Positions 1-8,650 of a DNA stretch of 64,000 nt are shown here, piece by piece. Under the pieces are notes generated by a model. That model saw nothing but the letters and a program-made list of their open reading frames with translations. It searched no databases and was not told where the DNA came from. The DNA is from Sulfurimonas denitrificans DSM 1251 (GTDB lineage: Bacteria; Campylobacterota; Campylobacteria; Campylobacterales; Sulfurimonadaceae): NCBI RefSeq assembly GCF_000012965.1, contig NC_007575.1:1798001-1862000 (forward strand), in the 5' to 3' direction. Position 1 is the first letter of the stretch, and every line of letters starts with the position of its first letter. Made by a program: the position numbers and the translations under genes.

Positions 1-1380
1 ACTATCCAAAGTTACATTATCAACACCAGCTCCACCAGTATATGTTGCAGTATCACCACCGATTGTGATTGTAGTTGTACCAGTTGTAGCAGATGTGTTT
101 ACAGATGTAAGCGTATCTGCCTCATCTCCATCCATAGTTAAACTAGCAGAACCAGAAACTGTTAATGTAGTAAGTGCAGTCAAAGTTGCGCCTGTTAAAT
201 CAAGTGCATTTGTTCCAGCTACAGTTAATGTAGTTGCTGCAGCAGCATCTAAATCAATATCAGAATCTGCATTCGCTGTAGTGATGTTAATTGTAGTATA
301 TGTACCAGAATTATCATCAACAACTGAACCTGCTGTTACATTATCAACAGTAAGAGCTAAAGTTGTAGCTGTAGCATTTGTTATTGTAAGGTCTTGAGCA
401 CTATTTGCAATGCTTAATGTTGTTAATGCATCAGAAGTAATTGTAGATGATGCACCATATCCATCAAGAGTTACAGTTGCAATTGTGTCTGTAGTAGTAG
501 CACCATCAGCAATAACAACAGCACCACCAACGATACCAGCAACACCAGTTACTGCAGTAGTTGCACTTGAACCATTCACAACAGTTACAGCAGCTGTACC
601 AGTACCAGTATTTGCTATATTAGTTCCATCATTTGCTTTAACAACGCTTGTAAATACAACAGTATTACTGCTTGTACCACTCACGGCACCTGTTGTATAG
701 TCTGAACTTAATGCACCTGTATAGACACCTTTAGTTGCTGCACCATGAGTAGCACCAGCTGCTAAATTTTCGAATATTGTTGCAGCTTCAGTTGCAGTCA
801 TAGCCGCAGAAGCAGTAAAAGTTAAACCATCAAGGATAACTGTTTGACCAATAGTTAATGCACTGAAAACAACTGTTGCAGTCTCGTTAGCACCAGCAAC
901 AGCATCAACAGCATCAACAGCAGTAACAGCAGCGTCTTGGTTTACAGTTACAGTTGTTGTGTTATTACCACCAGTTACTGTAACATCACTTTGAGTTCTT
1001 GTACCAGAACCATTTGCAGGCATTGCAGATACAGCAGAAGTAGATGAAAATGCAGTTTGATTTACAGTAACAGTTGTACCGCCATCAATTGTAATTGCAC
1101 CAAGAACATTAGCTCCATCATTAGCTGCATCATCAGCAGTAGCATCATATGCTGTACCTGTTGAAGTTACACTTATTGCACCTGTAGGAATTGGGTTTGC
1201 CGCACCTGCTGATTGACCAATATCAATAGTACCCGTCGTAGCCTTTGCAGCAGTAACAGTTACATCTGTTCCGCCATCAATTGCTATGTCACCAGTAGTT
1301 TGATTTGTATCTGTTACAGTGATTGCACCAACAGCACCTGTCGTAGCACCAATAGTAATATCTTTAGTTAACGTTCCAGT
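1..1380 (-). pseudogene. S-layer/RTX-like surface protein, 5'-truncated paralogue (3' end beyond window)
   Basis: The minus strand is open from 1380 to the window edge and encodes a Thr/Ala/Val/Gly/Asp-rich beta-type sequence with no aromatic-rich or catalytic segment. It includes the phrases TVTVNQ, LDGYGAS and TYTGGAGVDNVTL. The same order of motifs is found inside the large surface protein at 8726-12160 (for example LDSYGATS and TYTGGAGNDMVTI), so the two are paralogues. The DUF4214 N-terminal region, start codon and ribosome binding site are missing: coding similarity stops abruptly at 1380, where unrelated AT-rich sequence begins. The simplest reading is truncation by the mobile element starting at 1381. 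It could instead be a promoterless silent cassette for surface-protein variation. No frameshift was found in the blocks checked between 661 and 1380. Confidence 0.75.
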
Positions 1381-1512
1381 TTACCCTACCCTAAAAATAG
1401 TCTATTTTACACCTTTTTACCCTCTATAAAGCCCTTAAATAAGGGAAAATGAAAGTTTCATATCTTCTTAGTGATTTTTAGCTCTAATTTCTTGCTGGCA
1501 CAGTGCTGGCAG
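1381..1512. repeat. Left end of the TA-array element (imperfect inverted copy of the right end)
   Basis: Read on the minus strand, this segment goes from a GCCAGC-type motif pair through AAATTAGAGCTAAA to GGTGTAAAATAGAC, TATTTTTAGGG and TAGGGTAAA, then meets the S-layer coding sequence. The right end at 5350-5511 shows the same order: GCCGACC pair, AAATTGAGCTAAA, GGTGTCTCTAAAAC, TATTTTGGGAC, TAGGGGTAAAA. This is an alignment by eye, with gaps, so percent identity is not given. Confidence 0.5.
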
Positions 1513-1602
1513 AGATTGAATGTAAAAGTAGATGAATGGTACTTGATGAAGCTCTATATCAAGGGAAATTGCAGCTAGAATGTTGCTGGCATATTGCTGG
1601 CA
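1494..1602. repeat. Two pairs of GCTGGCA direct repeats, 11-bp period (cassette 1)
   Basis: GCTGGCA occurs at 1494 and 1505, and again at 1585 and 1596. Both pairs have a 4-bp spacer (CAGT and TATT), giving an 11-bp period, about one helical turn. The block from about 1541 to 1607 is repeated with few changes before the second module (about 2252-2323), including the shared GAAGCTCTATATC phrase. The arrangement resembles arm-type recombinase binding sites; this is inference. Confidence 0.6.
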
Positions 1603-1672
1603 GCAGGTTAAATTTTAAGCTAGTTATAATGTTTAGAATATGCTTTTTAAGAGAAAACATAAAGAACTATGG

Positions 1673-1678
1673 TATAAT
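1673..1678 (+). promoter_or_regulatory. -10 element TATAAT, leaderless promoter of brnT
   Basis: GGTATAAT is followed by exactly six bases (TTTGGT) and then the ATG of brnT at 1685. Transcription would start at or next to the start codon, leaving no room for a ribosome binding site. None is visible. Confidence 0.5.
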
Positions 1679-1684
1679 TTTGGT

Positions 1685-1948
1685 ATGAAATTTGAATATT
1701 ATAGCAACAAATCAGATATTAATAAAGAGAAGCATGGTATAGACTTTGAGAAAGCTAAAGTGTTATGGGAAGATGATAACCTTTTAGAAGTTCCTCTACC
1801 TTTTAAAGAGGAAGTACGCCATTTATGCATAGGTAAAATTTTGAATAAACATTATTCTGCTGTAATTACATATCGAAGTAAAGCTATTCGTATTATATCT
1901 GTTAGAAGATCGAGAAAAGAGGAGATAAACGGCTATGAAAACAGTTAA
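1685..1948 (+). CDS. brnT: BrnT-family toxin (type II TA, RelE-like ribonuclease fold)
   Basis: This 87-residue protein has the BrnT (DUF497) pattern: MKFEYYSNKSD at the N-terminus, then KHGIDFEKA, then IRIISVRRSRKEE near the C-terminus, where family members keep catalytic Arg/His-type residues. BrnT toxins inhibit translation by RNA cleavage and are neutralised by BrnA. I chose the ATG at 1685 because BrnT proteins normally begin at this motif. A longer frame starting at 1640 adds 15 residues that do not fit the family; it too sits just behind a TATAAT (1625-1630). The gene overlaps brnA by 14 bp in the usual toxin-first order, and the pair is the first module of the array. Activity is inferred from family membership. 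Confidence 0.85.
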   Translation: MKFEYYSNKSDINKEKHGIDFEKAKVLWEDDNLLEVPLPFKEEVRHLCIGKILNKHYSAVITYRSKAIRIISVRRSRKEEINGYENS

Positions 1949-2162
1949 AGAGTTTGATGAGCTATTTGATAGTGGTGAAGATATATCAGAGTTTGTTGAT
2001 TACTCAAAAGCGACTAGACCAAATCTTGCCCAAAAGAGAGTTAATCTTGACTTACCAGTATGGATGATTGAAAAACTTGATAAGGAAGCAAAACGCTTGG
2101 GTGTTGCTAGACAAGCTATTATGAAAATGTTCTTAGCACAACATTTAGAAAAAGCAATATAA
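1935..2162 (+). CDS. brnA: BrnA-family antitoxin (ribbon-helix-helix)
   Basis: This 75-residue protein has an acidic N-terminal half that would contact the toxin and a C-terminal RVNLDLPVWMIEKLDKEAKRL segment typical of BrnA/CopG-type ribbon-helix-helix DNA-binding domains, ending in VARQAIMKMFLAQHL. It overlaps the end of brnT, so the pair is translationally coupled. BrnA both neutralises BrnT and represses the operon in characterised systems. Here the putative operator would lie between the GCTGGCA pairs and the TATAAT upstream of brnT. The gene is intact, so the pair can be a functional stabiliser of the element. Confidence 0.85.
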   Translation: MKTVKEFDELFDSGEDISEFVDYSKATRPNLAQKRVNLDLPVWMIEKLDKEAKRLGVARQAIMKMFLAQHLEKAI

Positions 2163-2171
2163 AAATAAAAT

Positions 2172-2202
2172 AGTACCTGAGTGGATTACCAACTCTAGCA
2201 CT
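2172..2202. terminator. Hairpin at cassette 1 / recombinase-remnant junction
   Basis: An imperfect inverted repeat (AGTACCTGAGTGG ... CCAACTCTAGCACT) follows brnA and precedes the remnant recombinase stop codon. It is the counterpart of the better-paired hairpins at 3021 and 4004, which sit in the same convergent position. A bidirectional terminator is likely; a recombination site is possible. Confidence 0.45.
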
Positions 2203-2237
2203 TAACTAGCTTCTCTTTGCTTTGTAATATAATGAAG
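2202..2237 (-). pseudogene. Remnant of the degenerate serine-recombinase C-terminus (copy 1)
   Basis: Read on the minus strand, this ends in the codons for LHYITKQREAS and a TAA stop. That matches the C-terminal tail of the intact gene at 4050-4604 (LLRHIARSKKSA) and even better the second remnant at 3048-3134 (LLRHIAKQRDKKSA). Only about a dozen codons survive. The position, directly after a module-end hairpin, is the same in all three copies, which is the main support for calling so short a fragment. Confidence 0.5.
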
Positions 2238-2300
2238 ATAATTTAGATTTGCCAGTACTCTTTGAAGCTCTATATCGAGGGAGATTGTAGTTGAAATTTT

Positions 2301-2318
2301 GCTGGCATATTGCTGGCA
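2301..2318. repeat. GCTGGCA direct-repeat pair, 11-bp period (cassette 2)
   Basis: GCTGGCA at 2301 and 2312, separated by TATT, is identical to the pair at 1585-1602 and followed by the same GCAGGTTA. The 50 bases to the left also match the block before the first module. Only one pair is present here, unlike the first and third modules. Confidence 0.6.
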
Positions 2319-2372
2319 GCAGGTTATAATGTTTATATTTGGTAGTTTTGGTAAGATGTAGCTTTATTGTGA

Positions 2373-2378
2373 TATAAT
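2373..2378 (+). promoter_or_regulatory. -10 element TATAAT of the PIN toxin-antitoxin module
   Basis: GATATAAT lies 28 bases before the antitoxin start, with a ribosome binding site AAGGGAG at 2394-2400. The module therefore has its own promoter rather than depending on an array promoter. Confidence 0.5.
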
Positions 2379-2406
2379 ATTAGATAAATTATTAAGGGAG
2401 CCAAAG

Positions 2407-2619
2407 ATGAAAAGTTACACACTTGAATTTCAAAATGAGAGTCTTATAAATCAGGTTATGAACTTCTTTGAACAGCTGCCACAAAATGAGGTTCATATAA
2501 AAGAGAACAAGCAGCCATATTCAATAGATGATGACTTCATATCTTATCTAACCTCAAACCCTGTAGAAATTGCACATAACGATAGCTTTCTAACTAGGGA
2601 AGATGCGAATGTGCGATAA
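2407..2619 (+). CDS. Putative antitoxin of PIN-domain toxin
   Basis: This 70-residue protein opens with MKSYTLEFQNESLINQVMNFFEQLPQNEV. The third module's antitoxin (MRTVTLKIEDDYFDKIISFLEILPKKAV) shares this layout, so the two antitoxins are related in their N-terminal parts. The rest is acidic and probably wraps the toxin. No classical DNA-binding motif is obvious. A good ribosome binding site (AAGGGAG) precedes the ATG, and the gene overlaps the toxin by 17 bp. The antitoxin assignment rests on size, overlap with a PIN-domain gene and similarity to the other array antitoxin. Confidence 0.75.
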   Translation: MKSYTLEFQNESLINQVMNFFEQLPQNEVHIKENKQPYSIDDDFISYLTSNPVEIAHNDSFLTREDANVR

Positions 2620-3016
2620 AGTATTTATAGATACTAATATAATTCTGTATGCGATAAGCACTCAGGATGCTGATAAACGTTCTATTGCAACACCTATAGT
2701 TCTGTCAGATGCTACAATAAGTGCACAAGTTATCAATGAAGCAAGTGTCAATCTACTAAAAAAACTAAAATTCAGTGAAGAGATGATTCAGAAGTTTGTA
2801 GATAGTTCTTATCACAGATATAATGTTGTTGAACTTACAAGGAATGTTTTTATAAGGGCTTCTGAGCTAAGAGAAAAATACAACTTCTCATACTATGACA
2901 GCATTATTGTATCTGCTGCTATAATAGCTAATTGCACAATCCTTTACTCTGAAGACATGCAACATGAACTAATTGTAGATAACCGCTTAAAAATCATCAA
3001 CCCATTTAAAAAATAA
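2603..3016 (+). CDS. PIN-domain toxin (VapC-like ribonuclease)
   Basis: This 137-residue protein has the conserved acidic residues of PIN-domain nucleases: FIDTNIILYA near residue 9, INEASVNLL near 46, YYDSIIVSAA near 98 and ILYSEDMQ near 117. Such toxins are Mg-dependent endoribonucleases that cut tRNA or rRNA. ATGs at 2603 and 2609 are both possible; both overlap the antitoxin. The gene ends just before the hairpin at 3021 and a fossil of the recombinase gene. All four metal-binding acids appear present, so the protein is probably active, though the RNA target cannot be read from the sequence. Confidence 0.85.
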   Translation: MRMCDKVFIDTNIILYAISTQDADKRSIATPIVLSDATISAQVINEASVNLLKKLKFSEEMIQKFVDSSYHRYNVVELTRNVFIRASELREKYNFSYYDSIIVSAAIIANCTILYSEDMQHELIVDNRLKIINPFKK

Positions 3017-3020
3017 AATA

Positions 3021-3048
3021 GTGCCAGAGTGGAAACCCACTCCAGCAC
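3021..3048. terminator. Hairpin at cassette 2 / recombinase-remnant junction
   Basis: GTGCCAGAGTGG and CCACTCCAGCAC form a 12-bp imperfect stem with an A-rich left flank and a T-run to the right (TCTTTTTAT), so it could end transcription from both directions. Nearly the same hairpin occurs at 4004-4033 beside the intact recombinase gene. Confidence 0.6.
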
Positions 3049-3134
3049 TAAGCACTCTTTTTATCTCTTTGCTTTGCAATATGCCTAAGCAGAGTTGACC
3101 TACCTACACTAAATCGTTAACGTACTAATTTGGC
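3048..3134 (-). pseudogene. Remnant of the degenerate serine-recombinase C-terminus (copy 2)
   Basis: On the minus strand, 3116 to 3048 reads RFSVGRSTLLRHIAKQRDKKSA and a TAG stop. The intact protein at 4050-4604 ends RFRVGRSTLLRHIARSKKSA. Five more codons upstream (AKLVR) can still be aligned, with one in-frame stop between. The match covers the recognition helix of the C-terminal helix-turn-helix and is too long and too well placed to be chance. It is direct evidence that an earlier copy of the recombinase gene stood here. Confidence 0.75.
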
Positions 3135-3241
3135 AATGAAAAGTAAACAAACTTTTCTTAGTATTTTTAGCCCTAAAACTCCCTAAAAACCGAGGAAGTA
3201 AAAGTTTGATAGAAGAGTGCTATTTTTTAGATAAATTTCTT

Positions 3242-3350
3242 GCTGGCATATTGCTGGCAAAAAATGAATTATGAAATGTACAATTGAGGCTCTTTAAAGT
3301 ACGACAATAAGGAAAATCATAAAAAAAAAGTTACTGGCATATTGCTGGTA
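3242..3350. repeat. Two pairs of GCTGGCA-type direct repeats, 11-bp period (cassette 3)
   Basis: GCTGGCA at 3242 and 3253, then ACTGGCA at 3333 and GCTGGTA at 3344, each pair with a TATT spacer. As in the first module, two pairs stand about 80-90 bp apart. The sequence to the left (3160-3241) contains TTCTTAGT...TTTTTAGC and ATTTCTTGCTGGCA, as in the element's left end at 1465-1500. This suggests a relic of an older element end inside the array. Confidence 0.6.
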
Positions 3351-3413
3351 ACTTAGTATATTTTTTAGCTTATTTTAAGTTTTTAGGTTTGATTATTAGA
3401 GATGGATTTTTGG

Positions 3414-3419
3414 TATAAT
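3414..3419 (+). promoter_or_regulatory. Extended -10 (TGGTATAAT) of the RelE-like module
   Basis: TGGTATAAT stands 30 bases before the antitoxin ATG at 3450, with the ribosome binding site AAAAAGGAG at 3434-3442. It marks a private promoter for the third module. Confidence 0.5.
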
Positions 3420-3449
3420 CATACTTAAGATTAAAAAAGGAGTTTGACA

Positions 3450-3647
3450 ATGAGAACTGTAACTTTAAAAATTGAAGATGATTATTTTGATAAAATCATT
3501 TCTTTTTTAGAAATACTCCCTAAAAAAGCTGTAAAAATTGAACAGCAAGATGAAGAAAAAAAACTAAAAGAAATAGAAAAAAACATAATTTGTGCATTTG
3601 ACGACATTAAACAAGGAAGAACTAAAAAAATTAGGACTGTTGCTTGA
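3450..3647 (+). CDS. Putative antitoxin of RelE-like module
   Basis: This 65-residue protein opens MRTVTLKIEDDYFDKIISFLEILPKKAVKIE, close in layout to the second module's antitoxin. A Lys/Glu-rich helical stretch and a short tail ending IRTVA follow. The ATG at 3450 has a strong ribosome binding site (AAGGAG); a TTG six bases upstream is less likely. Its stop codon overlaps the TTG start of the toxin (TTGA). It probably blocks the toxin by its helical C-terminal part and may autoregulate. Function is inferred from context. Confidence 0.75.
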   Translation: MRTVTLKIEDDYFDKIISFLEILPKKAVKIEQQDEEKKLKEIEKNIICAFDDIKQGRTKKIRTVA

Positions 3648-4003
3648 GTTCTCTTCTCGGTGTTATTATCGAGGAAACTGAAACTTTTGCCAAAGCTGTA
3701 AAACAACTTCAAAAACAATTTAAAAATGTAGAAACGGATTGTGATGAGTTTGTGCATAATATCAAGACTATAGACAATTTAGGTGTAAATTTAGGCAGTG
3801 GAGTTTATAAAGTACGAATTGCAAATAGTGATAAAAAAAGCGGTAAAAGTTCTGGTTACAGGCTTATCTCATATTTAAAACTTATTGATAACAAACTCTA
3901 CCTTATGTATGTTTACGACAAAAGTGACCTTGGCACTGTATCTGAAAAACAAATAGACGCATTAATTAAAAAAACCATTCTTGAAAAAACAAATAAAGAA
4001 TAA
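3644..4003 (+). CDS. RelE/HigB-like toxin
   Basis: This 119-residue basic protein has a RelE-superfamily profile: a helical N-terminus (FAKAVKQLQKQFKNV), then GVYKVRIANSDKKSGKSSGYRLISYL and LYLMYVYDKSDLG, the beta-strand core in which RelE-type ribonucleases carry basic catalytic residues. It starts at a TTG that overlaps the antitoxin stop by two bases, so it is translated by coupling. It is the last and apparently youngest module, directly facing the intact recombinase pair. The specific RelE subfamily is not certain from sequence alone. Confidence 0.75.
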   Translation: MSSLLGVIIEETETFAKAVKQLQKQFKNVETDCDEFVHNIKTIDNLGVNLGSGVYKVRIANSDKKSGKSSGYRLISYLKLIDNKLYLMYVYDKSDLGTVSEKQIDALIKKTILEKTNKE

Positions 4004-4033
4004 ATGCCAAAGTGGATTATCCCACTCCAGCAT
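4004..4033. terminator. Hairpin between RelE-like toxin and recombinase gene
   Basis: ATGCCAAAGTGG and CCACTCCAGCAT pair around a short loop, between two convergent genes. It starts at the toxin stop codon and ends 16 bp from the recombinase stop. The near-identical hairpin at 3021 has the same neighbours, which shows that the junction has been copied as a unit. Confidence 0.6.
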
Positions 4034-4049
4034 TTGAATTTGACTTTAT

Positions 4050-4604
4050 TTACGCACTCTTTTTACTCCTAGCAATATGCCGCAGTAGCGTACTTCTTCC
4101 TACTCTAAATCTATTGGCAACTTGTCGTGAGGTATTATTCTGCTTTAGCTCTATAGCTTTTAACACCTCTTTAGCACTAAGTTTTGGTGGTCTGCCTAAT
4201 CTTCTACATTCATCTTTTGCTTTAGAGATACCATAAGCTTGTTTTTCTACTCTTATATCCTCTATAAACTCGCTTAGAAAAAAGAGTAGTTCATCAAGGT
4301 TATAGCTATTTGAAGAGATAAACTGCTGTTTGGTAGCTTGTAGGATTATATGTTTTTCTTCAAAAGTAAACATAAGTTCTAAAAGAGTTTGAACACTGCT
4401 AGAGAGGATTGATAATCTTGTCACTGCTAAAATATCGCCGCAATGAAGTATCTCTACTACTTGAGCAAGTTTTACTTTGCTTTGATAATTGAGATTCTCT
4501 TTTGGTTCAACATAGATTTTACTACACCCTGCAGCTATAAGAAGTTCTGATTGTTCTTCTATCTCCTCTTTGTTTGTGGCTCTGATATATCCTATCTTTT
4601 TCAT
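4050..4604 (-). CDS. Degenerate serine recombinase (resolvase/invertase family), catalytic residues lost
   Basis: This 184-residue protein has the resolvase layout: an N-terminal domain opening MKKIGYIRATNKEEIEEQ, a long helix near residues 100-125, then RLGRPPKLSAKEVLKAIEL and a C-terminal helix-turn-helix (VANRFRVGRSTLLRHIARS). In active family members the segment is G-Y-x-R-V-S with the nucleophilic serine at residue 10; here residue 10 is threonine. The conserved L-D-R-L-x-R motif is replaced by RLSILSSS, so both active-site arginines are missing too. It should bind DNA but not cut it. The gene overlaps the upstream tyrosine recombinase by 4 bp (ATGA), so the two are made together. It may act as a DNA-binding partner or regulator; that is inference. 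Confidence 0.8.
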   Translation of the reverse strand: MKKIGYIRATNKEEIEEQSELLIAAGCSKIYVEPKENLNYQSKVKLAQVVEILHCGDILAVTRLSILSSSVQTLLELMFTFEEKHIILQATKQQFISSNSYNLDELLFFLSEFIEDIRVEKQAYGISKAKDECRRLGRPPKLSAKEVLKAIELKQNNTSRQVANRFRVGRSTLLRHIARSKKSA

Positions 4605-5203
4605 CGTATCATCGCTCCTTTGACATCTGCATCTGTTGGCTTGATATATCCCATAGTGGTTTTTACATCACTATGACCTATAAACTTTGAGATGATTTTT
4701 GTATTGATACCTTTTGCTCCCATCTCAGTTATAAGACCTTGTCGGAATGAGTGGGAGGTGTAGCCGTCTCCTAAGATGGATTTCATTACCTCGTTGACTT
4801 GAGCGATAAATGTAAATGGATGGATTCCTTCTCTTTTGTTTTGGCTGCTTCCTTTACTTATCACTTTTATTTGCAAGTCGGTGTCGGTTGTTATACTAAG
4901 TAGCTTTTTAAGTTGCTTTTGAAATTCATCACCTGCAAAGAGTTTGCGTTCACTTTTGGTTTTTAGTAAGAGAAGTTTTGTTTCACCTGTATCTAGTAGC
5001 TCTTTGATATGTAAGAGTTTCATCTGTTGTAGTTCATTAAGTCTTAGACCTGTGAAGTATAAAATTGTAAAAGCACGAAGTAGATTATCTTTGGTGTTGG
5101 GTCGTAGTGACTCATCGCCTCTGATTGCACTCATTAACTTTTTATACTCTTGTTCGGTTACTGATTCTTTTATCCGTTTGAGTGTTGGTTTTTTCTTTTT
5201 CAT
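4601..5203 (-). CDS. Tyrosine recombinase/integrase, short form (catalytic domain)
   Basis: This 200-residue protein is a phage-integrase-family catalytic domain with the expected residues: Arg in TGLRLNEL (near 54), HSFR (H151 and R154), GHSDVKTT (H177) and the tyrosine nucleophile in MGYIKP (Y186). It has no separate N-terminal SAM-like core-binding domain, so it is shorter than typical 300-400-residue integrases. It is the first gene of the two-gene recombinase operon and reads away from the right end of the element, as integrase genes beside an attachment end often do. It is the likely enzyme for insertion or excision of the array. Confidence 0.85.
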   Translation of the reverse strand: MKKKKPTLKRIKESVTEQEYKKLMSAIRGDESLRPNTKDNLLRAFTILYFTGLRLNELQQMKLLHIKELLDTGETKLLLLKTKSERKLFAGDEFQKQLKKLLSITTDTDLQIKVISKGSSQNKREGIHPFTFIAQVNEVMKSILGDGYTSHSFRQGLITEMGAKGINTKIISKFIGHSDVKTTMGYIKPTDADVKGAMIR

Positions 5204-5325
5204 CTCATTTCCTTATATTGTCTCCTTGTTTAGGGGTGTTTTATGGGGTTTTATTTTTGGTGGCGTGGTTGGAGGGGCTTTAAAATAGAAAAGTATGTGG
5301 GCTTGTTGGAAGTATAGTCAAGGGT

Positions 5326-5522
5326 GAAAAACCTTGTCAAGTAGGCATTGCCGACCATTTGCCGACCAAATTGAGCTAAAGTCTCTTTAAAAGTGTCTTT
5401 AAACCCTCTTGGGTTTTGGGACGGGGTAAAAAAGATGAGAAATCCTTTTGATATAAGGCTTTGAGGTGTCTCTAAAACTATTTTGGGACAGTAGGGGTAA
5501 AATCGCCCACCAATTGCCCACC
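5326..5522. repeat. Right end of the TA-array element with paired 7-bp motifs (copy 1 of 3)
   Basis: This holds GCCGACC at 5350 and 5361 and GCCCACC at 5505 and 5516. Each pair has a 4-bp spacer and 11-bp period, the same geometry as the GCTGGCA pairs. Between them lie two related blocks ending in GGGGTAAAA (near 5418 and 5494). It lies 120-320 bp upstream of the integrase start. Copies occur at 6545-6895 and within 7110-7306, so 5204-5690 is non-coding end sequence rather than an undetected gene. Confidence 0.55.
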
Positions 5523-5690
5523 ATTTTAGGTCGTTTTAAGTTTGAAAGAAATTTATGAATTTTAGAAGTTGTTACTTGTTGTAGCAGATTTGAGTGTTTG
5601 GGGTGGTTTTAGGTGTCTTTGAAATATATTGTTTGGGTGTGAAATGTGTTGGTTTTTTGGTGTGTTGCGTTTGGTGGTGGTCGGCTGGGA

Positions 5691-6437
5691 TTATTTTAAA
5701 ATTGTATTGATTGTTTTGGTACTTAGGTTTATAAATTCTGCTATTTCACTTTTTGTATATCCATATTCAAAAGCTTTTTTAATATTTTCATTTCTGTTAA
5801 TATCACGGTCTTGTTCAAAAAAAGTTTCTAATCTTTTTTTGAGAACTTTTAAATTGCCCTCTTTTGTTGTTATAAGCTTTGGAGATTTATAAACTATATC
5901 TATAGCATCTATATCCATTTCACTACTTAAATAATCTGAGTATTCATCATAAGTCATCTCAAAAATCATAGAATCGTTTAAAAGTTCAAAGTAGTTGTGT
6001 TTATATTTCCATTGAAAAAAAGATTGGTATTTATAAAGAGCAACATCCTGTACCATATTTGCTTTTATGGGATTTCTCTCTATATACTTTGCTACTATCC
6101 AAAAATGAGCATCATCAAATAGGGGATATGATTTGTATCTACCCTGCCAAAGATGACCGCTTCTTGTGTACTTTTTGTTAAAGTATTTTGCATATTTATC
6201 ATTTACAAACTGCATAGCTTTAGAGAGATTGGTTTGTTTTGTTTCTAAAAGAATATGATAGTGATTTGTCATAAGACAAAATGCGTGGATAATGAGTTCA
6301 TAATCTTTGGAGGCTTTAAGTAAAAGATCTAAAAAAAACTCATAATCTTCTAGTTCAAGATAGATAGATCTTCTCTCTACTCCACGATTTACAATATGAT
6401 AATAACATGGTTCTTGGTATCGTTCTTTTCTTGGCAT
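5691..6437 (-). CDS. REP-associated tyrosine transposase (RAYT, Y1/HUH family), copy A
   Basis: This 248-residue protein has the hallmarks of the TnpA-REP family: YYHIVNRGVERR near the N-terminus, the metal-binding HUH motif as FCLMTNHYHILLE (H59 and H61), and YAKYFNKKY with GHLWQGRYKS around residues 82-104, which supplies the catalytic tyrosine. A C-terminal helix-turn-helix-like tail (YTKSEIAEFINLSTKTI) follows. Such enzymes act on short palindromic REP sequences. Copies of GGTGCCTGACACC start 55 bp beyond its start codon. Its 5' leader contains no strong ribosome binding site. Confidence 0.9.
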   Translation of the reverse strand: MPRKERYQEPCYYHIVNRGVERRSIYLELEDYEFFLDLLLKASKDYELIIHAFCLMTNHYHILLETKQTNLSKAMQFVNDKYAKYFNKKYTRSGHLWQGRYKSYPLFDDAHFWIVAKYIERNPIKANMVQDVALYKYQSFFQWKYKHNYFELLNDSMIFEMTYDEYSDYLSSEMDIDAIDIVYKSPKLITTKEGNLKVLKKRLETFFEQDRDINRNENIKKAFEYGYTKSEIAEFINLSTKTINTILK

Positions 6438-6491
6438 GTAGTATTATAGTGAAATATGTATTAATTTTAAATTAAGTTTTGTTCCCATAAT

Positions 6492-6538
6492 GGTGCCTGA
6501 CACCCCTTTTTCATGTTCCCATAATGGTGCCTGACACC
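6492..6538. repeat. REP-like palindrome GGTGCCTGACACC, two copies
   Basis: Copies at 6492 and 6526, each preceded by GTTCCCATAAT and followed by CCCTTTT. The GGTG/CACC arms with a CCTGA centre can form a small hairpin. They adjoin the 5' side of transposase copy A, as expected for RAYT substrates. Confidence 0.75.
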
Positions 6539-6544
6539 CCTTTT

Positions 6545-6895
6545 GAAAAACCTTGTCAAGTAGGCATTGCCGACCATTTGCCGACCAAATTGAGCTAAAG
6601 TCTCTTTAAAAGTGTCTTTAAACCCTCTTGGGTTTTGGGACGGGGTAAAAAAGATGAGAAATCCTTTTGATATAAGGCTTTGAGGTGTCTCTAAAACTAT
6701 TTTGGGACAGTAGGGGTAAAATCGCCCACCAATTGCCCACCATTTTAGGTCGTTTTAAGTTTGAAAGAAATTTACGAATTTTAGTAGATGTAACTGTTTG
6801 TAGCAAATGTGGGTGTTTGGGGTGGTTTTGGTGTATGTTGGATTGGTGGTTTTGAGTTGGGTTTTTGGTGTGTGGGTTGTGTGTGGTCGGCTAGA
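6545..6895. repeat. Element right end, copy 2 of 3 (diverged, without transposase)
   Basis: From GAAAAACCTTGTC this matches 5326-5570 almost base for base (GCCGACC pair at 6569, GCCCACC pair near 6727). It then diverges, but keeps the GTGTTTGGGGTGG and GGTCGGCT landmarks to about 6895. The transposase gene that follows the other two copies is missing. No coding region is supported here, although short open frames exist. Confidence 0.65.
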
Positions 6896-6930
6896 ATAGG
6901 TAAAGGAAAGTTTAAGGAAAGTCCCGTTTA

Positions 6931-7018
6931 GGTGCCTGACACCCTTTTTTTCCATAATGGCATAATGGTGCCTGACACCCCTTTTTTAAGTTTTGTTCCC
7001 ATAATGGTGCCTGACACC
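6931..7018. repeat. REP-like palindrome GGTGCCTGACACC, three copies
   Basis: Copies at 6931, 6967 and 7006. The first follows GTCCCGTTTA, the others CATAAT. All are followed by a T-run. They lie between the second right-end copy and direct repeat B. Confidence 0.75.
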
Positions 7019-7067
7019 CTTTTTGCTTTTTACTTATTTTTGCTCTTCATTATGATGTGCCGACCGC

Positions 7068-8295
7068 AATAGAAAAGTATGTGGGCTTGTTGGAAGTATA
7101 GTCAAGGGTGAAAAACCTTGTCAAGTAGGCATTGCCGACCATTTGCCGACCAAATTGAGCTAAAGTCTCTTTAAAAGTGTCTTTAAACCCTCTTGGGTTT
7201 TGGGACGGGGTAAAAAAGATGAGAAATCCTTTTGATATAAGGCTTTGAGGTGTCTCTAAAACTATTTTGGGACAGTAGGGGTAAAATCGCCCACCAATTG
7301 CCCACCATTTTAGGTCGTTTTAAGTTTGAAAGAAATTTATGAATTTTAGAAGTTGTTACTTGTTGTAGCAGATTTGAGTGTTTGGGGTGGTTTTAGGTGT
7401 CTTTGAAATATATTGTTTGGGTGTGAAATGTGTTGGTTTTTTGGTGTGTTGCGTTTGGTGGTGGTCGGCTGGGATTATTTTAAAATTGTATTGATTGTTT
7501 TGGTACTTAGGTTTATAAATTCTGCTATTTCACTTTTTGTATATCCATACTCAAAAGCTTTTTTAATATTTTCATTTCTGTTAATATCACGGTCTTGTTC
7601 AAAAAAAGTTTCTAATCTTTTTTTGAGAACTTTTAAATTGCCCTCTTTTGTTGTTATAAGCTTTGGAGATTTATAAACTATATCTATAGCATCTATATCC
7701 ATTTCACTACTTAAATAATCTGAGTATTCATCATAAGTCATCTCAAAAATCATAGAATCGTTTAAAAGTTCAAAGTAGTTGTGTTTATATTTCCATTGAA
7801 AAAAAGATTGGTATTTATAAATAGCAACATCCTGTACCATATTTGCTTTTATGGGATTTCTCTCTATATACTTTGCTACTATCCAAAAATGAGCATCATC
7901 AAATAGGGGATATGATTTGTATCTACCCTGCCAAAGATGACCGCTTCTTGTGTACTTTTTGTTAAAGTATTTTGCATATTTATCATTTACAAACTGCATA
8001 GCTTTAGAGAGATTGGTTTGTTTTGTTTCTAAAAGAATATGATAGTGATTTGTCATAAGACAAAATGCGTGGATAATGAGTTCATAATCTTTGGAGGCTT
8101 TAAGTAAAAGATCTAAAAAAAACTCATAATCTTCTAGTTCAAGATAGATAGATCTTCTCTCTACTCCACGATTTACAATATGATAATAACATGGTTCTTG
8201 GTATCGTTCTTTTCTTGGCATGTAGTATTATAGTGAAATATGTATTAATTTTAAATTAAGTTTTGTTCCCATAATGGTGCCTGACACCCCTTTTT
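7068..8295. repeat. 1.23-kb direct repeat, copy B (element right end + RAYT)
   Basis: Second copy of 5284-6511. It is preceded by an extra GCCGACC at 7060. The copy carries the third right-end segment (GCCGACC pair from 7134, GCCCACC pair from 7289) and the second transposase gene. Confidence 0.85.
7475..8221 (-). CDS. REP-associated tyrosine transposase (RAYT, Y1/HUH family), copy B
   Basis: Identical in length to copy A at 5691-6437 and differing by one residue (Ile for Leu in DVAIYKY). The HUH motif NHYH and the YAKYFNKKY segment are intact, so it is predicted active. Six REP-like palindromes follow on its 5' side between 8276 and 8602. RAYT genes are usually single-copy domesticated genes, so two near-identical intact copies 1.8 kb apart point to recent tandem duplication rather than ordinary transposition. 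Confidence 0.9.
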   Translation of the reverse strand: MPRKERYQEPCYYHIVNRGVERRSIYLELEDYEFFLDLLLKASKDYELIIHAFCLMTNHYHILLETKQTNLSKAMQFVNDKYAKYFNKKYTRSGHLWQGRYKSYPLFDDAHFWIVAKYIERNPIKANMVQDVAIYKYQSFFQWKYKHNYFELLNDSMIFEMTYDEYSDYLSSEMDIDAIDIVYKSPKLITTKEGNLKVLKKRLETFFEQDRDINRNENIKKAFEYGYTKSEIAEFINLSTKTINTILK

Positions 8296-8602
8296 TGCAA
8301 AAAGAGAGAAAAGAAGAAGAAAGGAAAAATTAAGTTTTATTCCTGTTTAGGTGCCTGACACCCTTTTTTAAGCAGAAGTAAAAGATTAATAAAAAACTAA
8401 GAAAAGTTTCAAAAGAGTGCCTGACACCCTTTTTTTGGTATCGTTCTTTTCTTGGCATGTAGTATTATAGTGAAATATGTATTAATTTTAAATTAAGTTT
8501 TGTTCCCATAATGGTGCCTGACACCCTTTTTCAAAGAAAAAAATAAGAAAAGTTTCAAAAGCGTGCCTGACACCCTTTTTTCCTGTTTAGGTGCCTGACA
8601 CC
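8276..8602. repeat. REP-like palindrome cluster, six copies
   Basis: GGTGCCTGACACC at 8276, 8350, 8513 and 8590, with one-base variants at 8416 (AGTGCC...) and 8562 (CGTGCC...). Leaders fall into three types: GTTCCCATAAT, TCCTGTTTA, and AAGTTTCAAAAG. The 8222-8725 gap is filled by these repeats, a transposase 5'-end fragment and a terminator. Confidence 0.75.
8435..8525 (-). pseudogene. Third partial copy of the RAYT 5' end and leader
   Basis: 8435-8525 repeats 8198-8288: the first seven or so codons of the transposase, its start codon (CAT at 8456-8458 on the plus strand), the AT-rich leader and the GGTGCCTGACACC palindrome. The rest of the gene is absent. It shows that RAYT-proximal sequence has been copied repeatedly at this spot. 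Confidence 0.7.
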
Positions 8603-8620
8603 CTTTTTAAGAAAGCAGAA

Positions 8621-8650
8621 AGCCCCACTCCGAAGAGTGAGGCTTTGAGT
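8621..8650 (-). terminator. Rho-independent terminator of the S-layer-like gene
   Basis: AGCCCCACTC and GAGTGAGGCT form a 10-bp stem with one mismatch around a CGAA loop, 80 bp beyond the stop codon at 8726. On the minus strand it is followed by a T-rich stretch. Confidence 0.7.

Follow-up and report, generated by a model that had tools for sequence, protein, structure and literature searches.

A degenerate serine recombinase translationally coupled to a minimal tyrosine recombinase in Sulfurimonas denitrificans and its possible role as an accessory protein

Several known recombination systems, some of which combine a catalytic recombinase with accessory proteins, lie close to the locus described here. 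Minimal tyrosine recombinases of the FimB/FimE type comprise about 200 residues and consist of the catalytic domain only; to our knowledge, they bring about promoter inversion with no resolvase-like protein dedicated to them. In Tn4651-type transposons, the tyrosine recombinase TnpS is accompanied by a dedicated resolution accessory protein, TnpT, which we do not know to be a relative of serine recombinases. Xer recombination at the plasmid sites cer and psi uses PepA together with ArgR or ArcA. These Xer accessory proteins are host enzymes and regulators, are unrelated to recombinases and are encoded outside the recombinase operon. They set the topology of XerCD recombination at plasmid sites without touching the recombinase (PMC2428073). 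Among the serine recombinases, resolvase with the inactivating S10A change is still functional at accessory sites II and III, where no catalysis is needed (PMC9943657). Finally, a hybrid system that is selective for topology was made by combining Cre-loxP with the accessory sites of resolvase (Kilbride 1999, 2006, cited in PMC9943657 and PMC2428073).

The stretch of DNA analysed here (the window) spans 64,000 nucleotides of Sulfurimonas denitrificans DSM 1251 (G000:C1:1798001-1862000, from a one-contig genome of 2,201,561 bases). Its minus strand carries the genes for a small serine recombinase of 184 residues (4050-4604) and a minimal tyrosine recombinase of 200 residues (4601-5203). The serine protein shares its fold, its two-domain layout and its helix-turn-helix (HTH) and GRP arm with the small serine recombinases (the Tn3 and gamma-delta resolvases, Sin, and the Gin and Hin invertases), and the nearest relatives of its clade are active resolvases from the same bacterial family. 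Unlike these, the clade has lost the active-site arginines and D67, as well as Ser10 in two members, and is coupled to a tyrosine recombinase. That partner is a catalytic-domain-only enzyme like FimB and FimE, and it differs from them in having a resolvase-like neighbour. With the Xer and TnpS/TnpT systems the pair would share a tyrosine recombinase that is joined by non-catalytic DNA-binding topology proteins in the first case and by a dedicated resolution accessory protein in the second. The Cre-Tn3 resolvase hybrid resembles it in combining tyrosine catalysis with resolvase architecture at accessory sites, as we propose below; the hybrid was built in the laboratory and has a resolvase active site, whereas the window pair is natural, its active site is degenerate and its mechanism is proposed. 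The pair would add a variant to the known recombination systems that use accessory factors. A natural combination of a dead resolvase and a tyrosine recombinase was not found in the open literature searched.

The serine recombinase frame is intact. Its product matched the Pfam Resolvase family (E = 1e-9) and HTH_7 (24.0 bits; cut-off, 23.8), so that the resolvase N-terminal fold and the C-terminal HTH, the latter already described in an earlier note on this sequence, are both present; the DNA-binding domain also has the GRPP motif. Compared with Tn3 resolvase, the window protein has Thr at position 10, Lys in place of R45, and Ser, Ile and Ser in place of D67, R68 and R71, the DRxxR motif being replaced by SILSS. 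We compared these positions (Tn3 numbering) among the six copies of the clade. D67, R68 and R71 were kept in none of them, and R45 was replaced by Lys in all six. R8 was retained in the window and L042 and was Lys or Gln in the remaining four. Ser10 was kept in four copies, Thr10 being present in the window and L031. By comparison, S10, R8, R68 and R71 were all retained in 45 of 45 viral resolvase homologues. R8 and R68 have been assigned to contact with the scissile phosphate, and a contact has been proposed for R71 (PMC4499144). The earlier claim that both active-site arginines are lost therefore extends to the whole clade. The claimed loss of the nucleophile is real in the window; however, it is limited to two copies, is not a general feature of the clade and was not the primary event. 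The simplest reading of this pattern is that the arginines were lost first and that the nucleophile is now drifting. At the level of sequence, these results support the view of the earlier note that this is a non-cutting protein with an intact DNA-binding domain, and we infer that it would not cleave DNA in vitro.

The predicted structure was in line with this assignment. An AlphaFold2 input of six sequences gave a pLDDT of 58, and an input of 51 sequences was used instead, which gave a resolvase fold with a pLDDT of 87.9. The best structural matches of the model were the Tn3 and gamma-delta resolvases, Sin and Gin, and the structure of Tn3 resolvase bound to site III matched with a Z score of 15.7; VIA-align served here as a second look for assigning the fold and not for ruling out other families. 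By descent and predicted fold, the 4050-4604 protein is a small serine recombinase whose active site is gone.

Homologues were searched in 228 genomes of the bacterial family and fell into three levels: near copies of 61-84% identity (two in G115 and one in G196), resolvases of about 34-38% identity whose active sites are complete, and a third group at greater distance. Two further near copies, L088 (77%) and L089 (74%), came from scanning 84,980 species genomes. Named relatives of the pair come from Sulfurimonas and other Campylobacterota MAGs. The clade was found neither in viral contigs nor, at a threshold of E 1e-30, in 396 further genomes of the phylum. In a tree of 33 proteins, the six copies formed a single clade with 100/100 support, whose stem measures 1.5 changes per site; its neighbours were active resolvases with VTRLDRCSRSV. 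No close homologue with intact arginines was found in the same neighbourhood, which would have marked the window copy as merely decaying. The dN/dS ratios, which are rough as several dS values are near saturation, were 0.07-0.29 for the serine gene across all 15 pairs (below 0.4 in every domain comparison) and 0.06-0.15 for the tyrosine gene. The window copy gave about 0.1 against L041, L042 or L088 at dS near 1, and pairs with L031 gave 0.2-0.3 with the exception of L031-L088 (0.11). The former catalytic domain mostly gave 0.13-0.31, a constraint nearly equal to that of the DNA-binding domain. With ratios of about 0.1-0.3 in both domains, the gene is being maintained rather than decaying.

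The tyrosine recombinase gene encodes a Phage_integrase-family protein and lies directly upstream of the serine gene, with which it shares an ATGA overlap of exactly 4 bp, as first noted from the window. The short tyrosine gene stands in this position, with the same overlap, at all six loci (in L042 it ends at the contig edge), and no close homologue of the serine gene lacked this partner. R54, K81, H151, R154, H177 and Y186 are intact in the window protein and invariant among 13 tyrosine recombinase homologues. The match of the protein to the 263-position XerA model is confined to positions 90-260, indicating that the N-terminal core-binding domain is missing; the earlier note was right on this point. 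We then considered the two families apart from each other. The closest active resolvase relatives (about 36% identity) lack a tyrosine partner, and no resolvase lies beside tyrosine homologues of the same bacterial family whose identities are 72, 70, 60 and 56% and reach as low as about 30%. Tyrosine relatives of 43% identity are found on circular Arcobacter plasmids. Since the nearest active resolvases lack a tyrosine partner and more distant tyrosine relatives lack a serine one, the dead resolvase was recruited once, and it is an addition in one branch of the tyrosine recombinases. Because most of the tyrosine family is unpaired, the dead resolvase cannot generally replace the missing core-binding domain; the suggestion that it stands in for this domain fails on the relatives of 72% identity and below, which have no serine partner. 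A serine-tyrosine partnership as such is supported by linkage and by selection.

Two further features of the tyrosine genes were seen. The partial gene of L042 (1-231) looks mosaic, its N-terminal part being like L066/L067 and its C-terminal end like the window. On G088:C1 (L070, L071) there are five small tyrosine recombinase copies in the one chromosome, two of which have about 95% DNA identity across 2.5 kb in different surroundings.

Our main reading, to which we give a probability of roughly 0.45, is that the pseudo-resolvase acts as a DNA-binding accessory of the minimal tyrosine recombinase, probably in an architectural or topological capacity in a resolution-type reaction. The dead resolvase and the active-looking tyrosine recombinase would be made from one translationally coupled operon. 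The dead resolvase would attach to DNA close to the core site of the tyrosine recombinase, which in relatives may be the inverted repeat upstream of the gene. Dimer-dimer contacts of the kind that resolvase makes when bound to accessory sites II and III would hold two copies in synapse, and the synapse would permit tyrosine-catalysed resolution only with the right geometry. The earlier note had suggested that the protein may choose the site or the direction for its partner. Contact with the tyrosine recombinase, the binding site, synapsis and the resolution role are what we infer. Given that the fold and the DNA-binding domain are kept, the chemistry is lost and the tyrosine gene is linked, the simplest reading would be a natural arrangement like that of Cre with Tn3 resolvase. 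More tentatively, the locus may be a natural two-family machine in which the tyrosine recombinase provides the chemistry and the dead serine recombinase provides synapsis and topological selectivity. The existence of the tyrosine family elsewhere without a serine partner counts against the accessory role.

The region upstream of the tyrosine genes contains a candidate for the core site. A perfect or near-perfect inverted repeat precedes nine tyrosine genes, with or without a serine partner. It is of the type AAACNNNATAAAC-N7-GTTTATNNNGTTT, with arms of 10-14 bp and a centre of 6-9 bp, and stops 94-99 bp short of the start codon. The arms vary between lineages and the symmetry is maintained. 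Core sites of the dif, lox or FRT type have this geometry of inverted arms around a short centre. Seven genomes were searched with a pattern for one form of the repeat, and it matched only beside tyrosine genes. Found only there, and once per element, the repeat fits a resolution site better than integration and is likely to be the core site of the tyrosine recombinase. We also considered the small recombinase as the integrase of the element, which is less likely as only one core repeat was found per element. Two observations on the repeat count against the accessory role: it was not found upstream of the plasmid homologues of 43% identity, and the window copy lacks it and yet shows no relaxed selection. 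In the window, a block before the gene that the serine-paired clade has conserved (AAAAATAAAACCCCATAAAACACCCC; 5208-5284, minus strand) is cut at 5284, and the core repeat of the relatives is absent upstream of the tyrosine gene.

Two sequences were found in the serine-paired branch only, a palindrome, GGGCTTTAAAGCCC, and an invariant block, AAAAATAAAACCCCATAAAA, both of which lie between the core repeat and the gene. These are candidate binding sites, and the ATAAAACCCC repeats are candidate binding sites of the dead resolvase. Their position is also where a promoter would be expected. Resolvases commonly repress their own promoters, and the dead resolvase might mainly be a repressor or autoregulator of the tyrosine-serine operon, perhaps also of neighbouring genes, with no role in a recombination complex. 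The intact HTH and GRPP arm would suit such a protein. However, the former catalytic domain is constrained nearly as strongly as the DNA-binding domain, which exceeds the needs of a bare repressor, and a translationally coupled second gene suggests partners in stoichiometric amounts. We regard repression as the main function as somewhat unlikely.

The pair belongs to an integrative element that has collapsed in the window. The tyrosine upstream region is joined at 5284 straight to an integrase-side element end (5284-5700, minus strand), which has 98% identity to the sequence preceding a full-length Arm-DNA-bind_3 (DUF4102) integrase in G196:C152; the integrase, the cargo and the core repeat are missing. 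This end contains 11-bp-spaced direct repeats, TTGCCGACCATTTGCCGACC (5348-5367) and GCCCACCAATTGCCCACC (5505-5522), which are likely integrase arm sites, and equally spaced repeats precede the full-length integrase in G196:C152. A sigma70-like promoter (TTGACA-18-TATACT; 5311-5340, minus strand; 11 of 12 positions) came from the integrase side via the deletion and now faces the pair. With the core repeat and the full-length integrase deleted, the local pair has probably been stranded as what remains of an integrative element. The pair of G115 lies 11-12 kb from full-length integrases with the Arm-DNA-bind_3 domain; after its serine gene come a terminator, a toxin-antitoxin (TA) cassette, two repeats with 11-bp spacing that lie 91 bp apart, and a surface-protein gene whose start falls inside the junction.

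Since the same elements encode a full-length integrase, the dead resolvase could be a directionality factor or accessory of that integrase instead of the small tyrosine recombinase, which counts against our main reading. The pair adjoins the element end with its 11-bp-spaced repeats, and AGGGCTTTAWAG is present beside the tyrosine core as well as, in both G115 copies, 2.1-2.3 kb away at the element end. Nevertheless, the serine gene is translationally coupled to the small recombinase, and the window has retained the pair after losing the integrase. A service to the integrase is therefore unlikely in our judgement.

Several features surround the element. A surface-protein gene (1-1380, minus strand) has had its 5' end removed by the element junction. 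Large repetitive surface-protein genes start abruptly at the junction in the window (1-1380), L031 (6619-8862), L041 (11568) and L042 (2611), with the motif GGAATGTTGACT or GGAACGTTAACT near their starts, which suggests that the elements integrate inside such genes. On the other side, the window has two near-identical Y1 transposase genes of the REP-associated type (5691-6437 and 7475-8221), about ten GTGCCTGACACC-type repeats within 6478-8621, and a 300-bp block present three times (5284-5583, 6503-6802 and 7068-7367).

Downstream of the serine gene, a hairpin with a T-rich tail (4002-4035, minus strand) is kept after every copy and is read as the intrinsic terminator of the pair. Its T-rich tail, the convergent genes and its terminator score speak against an attC or other recombination site. 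Beyond it lie three TA cassettes on the plus strand, which end in identical terminators. Cassette 3, a small ORF with a RelE-like toxin (3444-4003), adjoins the serine gene and is preceded by a TGCCAGCA-type direct repeat pair 91 bp apart (3241-3350), taken as element-end arm sites. Cassette 2, a small ORF with a PIN toxin (2407-3016; hairpin, 3020-3049), is followed by a remnant of the serine-gene 3' end (3051-3116, minus strand) and preceded by a single TGCCAGCAATATGCCAGCA repeat (2300-2318). Cassette 1, of the BrnT/BrnA-like type (1640-2162; hairpin, 2172-2202), likewise has a serine remnant behind it (2203-2255, minus strand), and a second TGCCAGCA-type pair, again 91 bp apart, marks the element end (1493-1602). 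The TGCCAGCA repeats were set aside as dead-resolvase sites because similar 11-bp-spaced repeats precede full-length Arm-DNA-bind_3 integrases. An integron was also rejected, as the cassette hairpins match intrinsic terminators and the integron integrase model, with a cut-off of 265 bits, gave the recombinase a score of 31. In our reading, the array arose by repeated insertion and later deletion that spared the addiction genes. Comparable arrays were seen in L042 (819-2274), L088 (4747-7605) and L089 (1652-3061) besides the window (1640-4003). Their cassettes differ (BrnT, PIN, RelE, ParE-like and zeta-like ATPase), a common terminator hairpin closes each, and serine-gene 3' remnants of varying length lie between them, an apparent serial accretion of element ends. 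The 11-mer GGCATATTGCT of the element-end repeats (1493-3350) also occurs in the last serine codons (4050-4130) and may have directed the junctions from which the remnants stem.

It is conceivable that the pair itself drives the exchange or accretion of TA cassettes at the element end, for the cassettes in the window, L042, L088 and L089 are bounded by the terminator, a serine 3' remnant and, mostly, a repeat. The end points of the remnants vary, however, as repeated insertion and deletion with kept addiction genes predicts, and the tyrosine core repeat was not seen at cassette borders; we think this explanation improbable. Two others can be dismissed briefly. Four copies do retain Ser10, but a recombinase that still works through an unusual active site is scarcely credible when R68 and R71 are gone and R45 is Lys in every copy, R8 varies among Arg, Lys and Gln, Ser10 itself is drifting to Thr, and the phosphate contacts are assigned to R8, R68 and probably R71 (PMC4499144). 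Equally remote is a decaying pseudogene that is open by chance, which the collapsed element and the lost core repeat of the window might suggest, against a dN/dS of about 0.11 at dS near 1 and full-length frames in six lineages.

If the pseudo-resolvase is indeed an accessory of the tyrosine recombinase, the regulatory half of a resolvase would be separable from its chemistry by evolution and reusable with an unrelated catalytic family, and the pair would be a natural, compact, topology-gated tyrosine recombinase. It would also make it possible to test cleanly if synapsis by architecture alone can direct recombination without protein contacts between the families. A two-family recombination machine has until now only been built artificially; nature may have made one.
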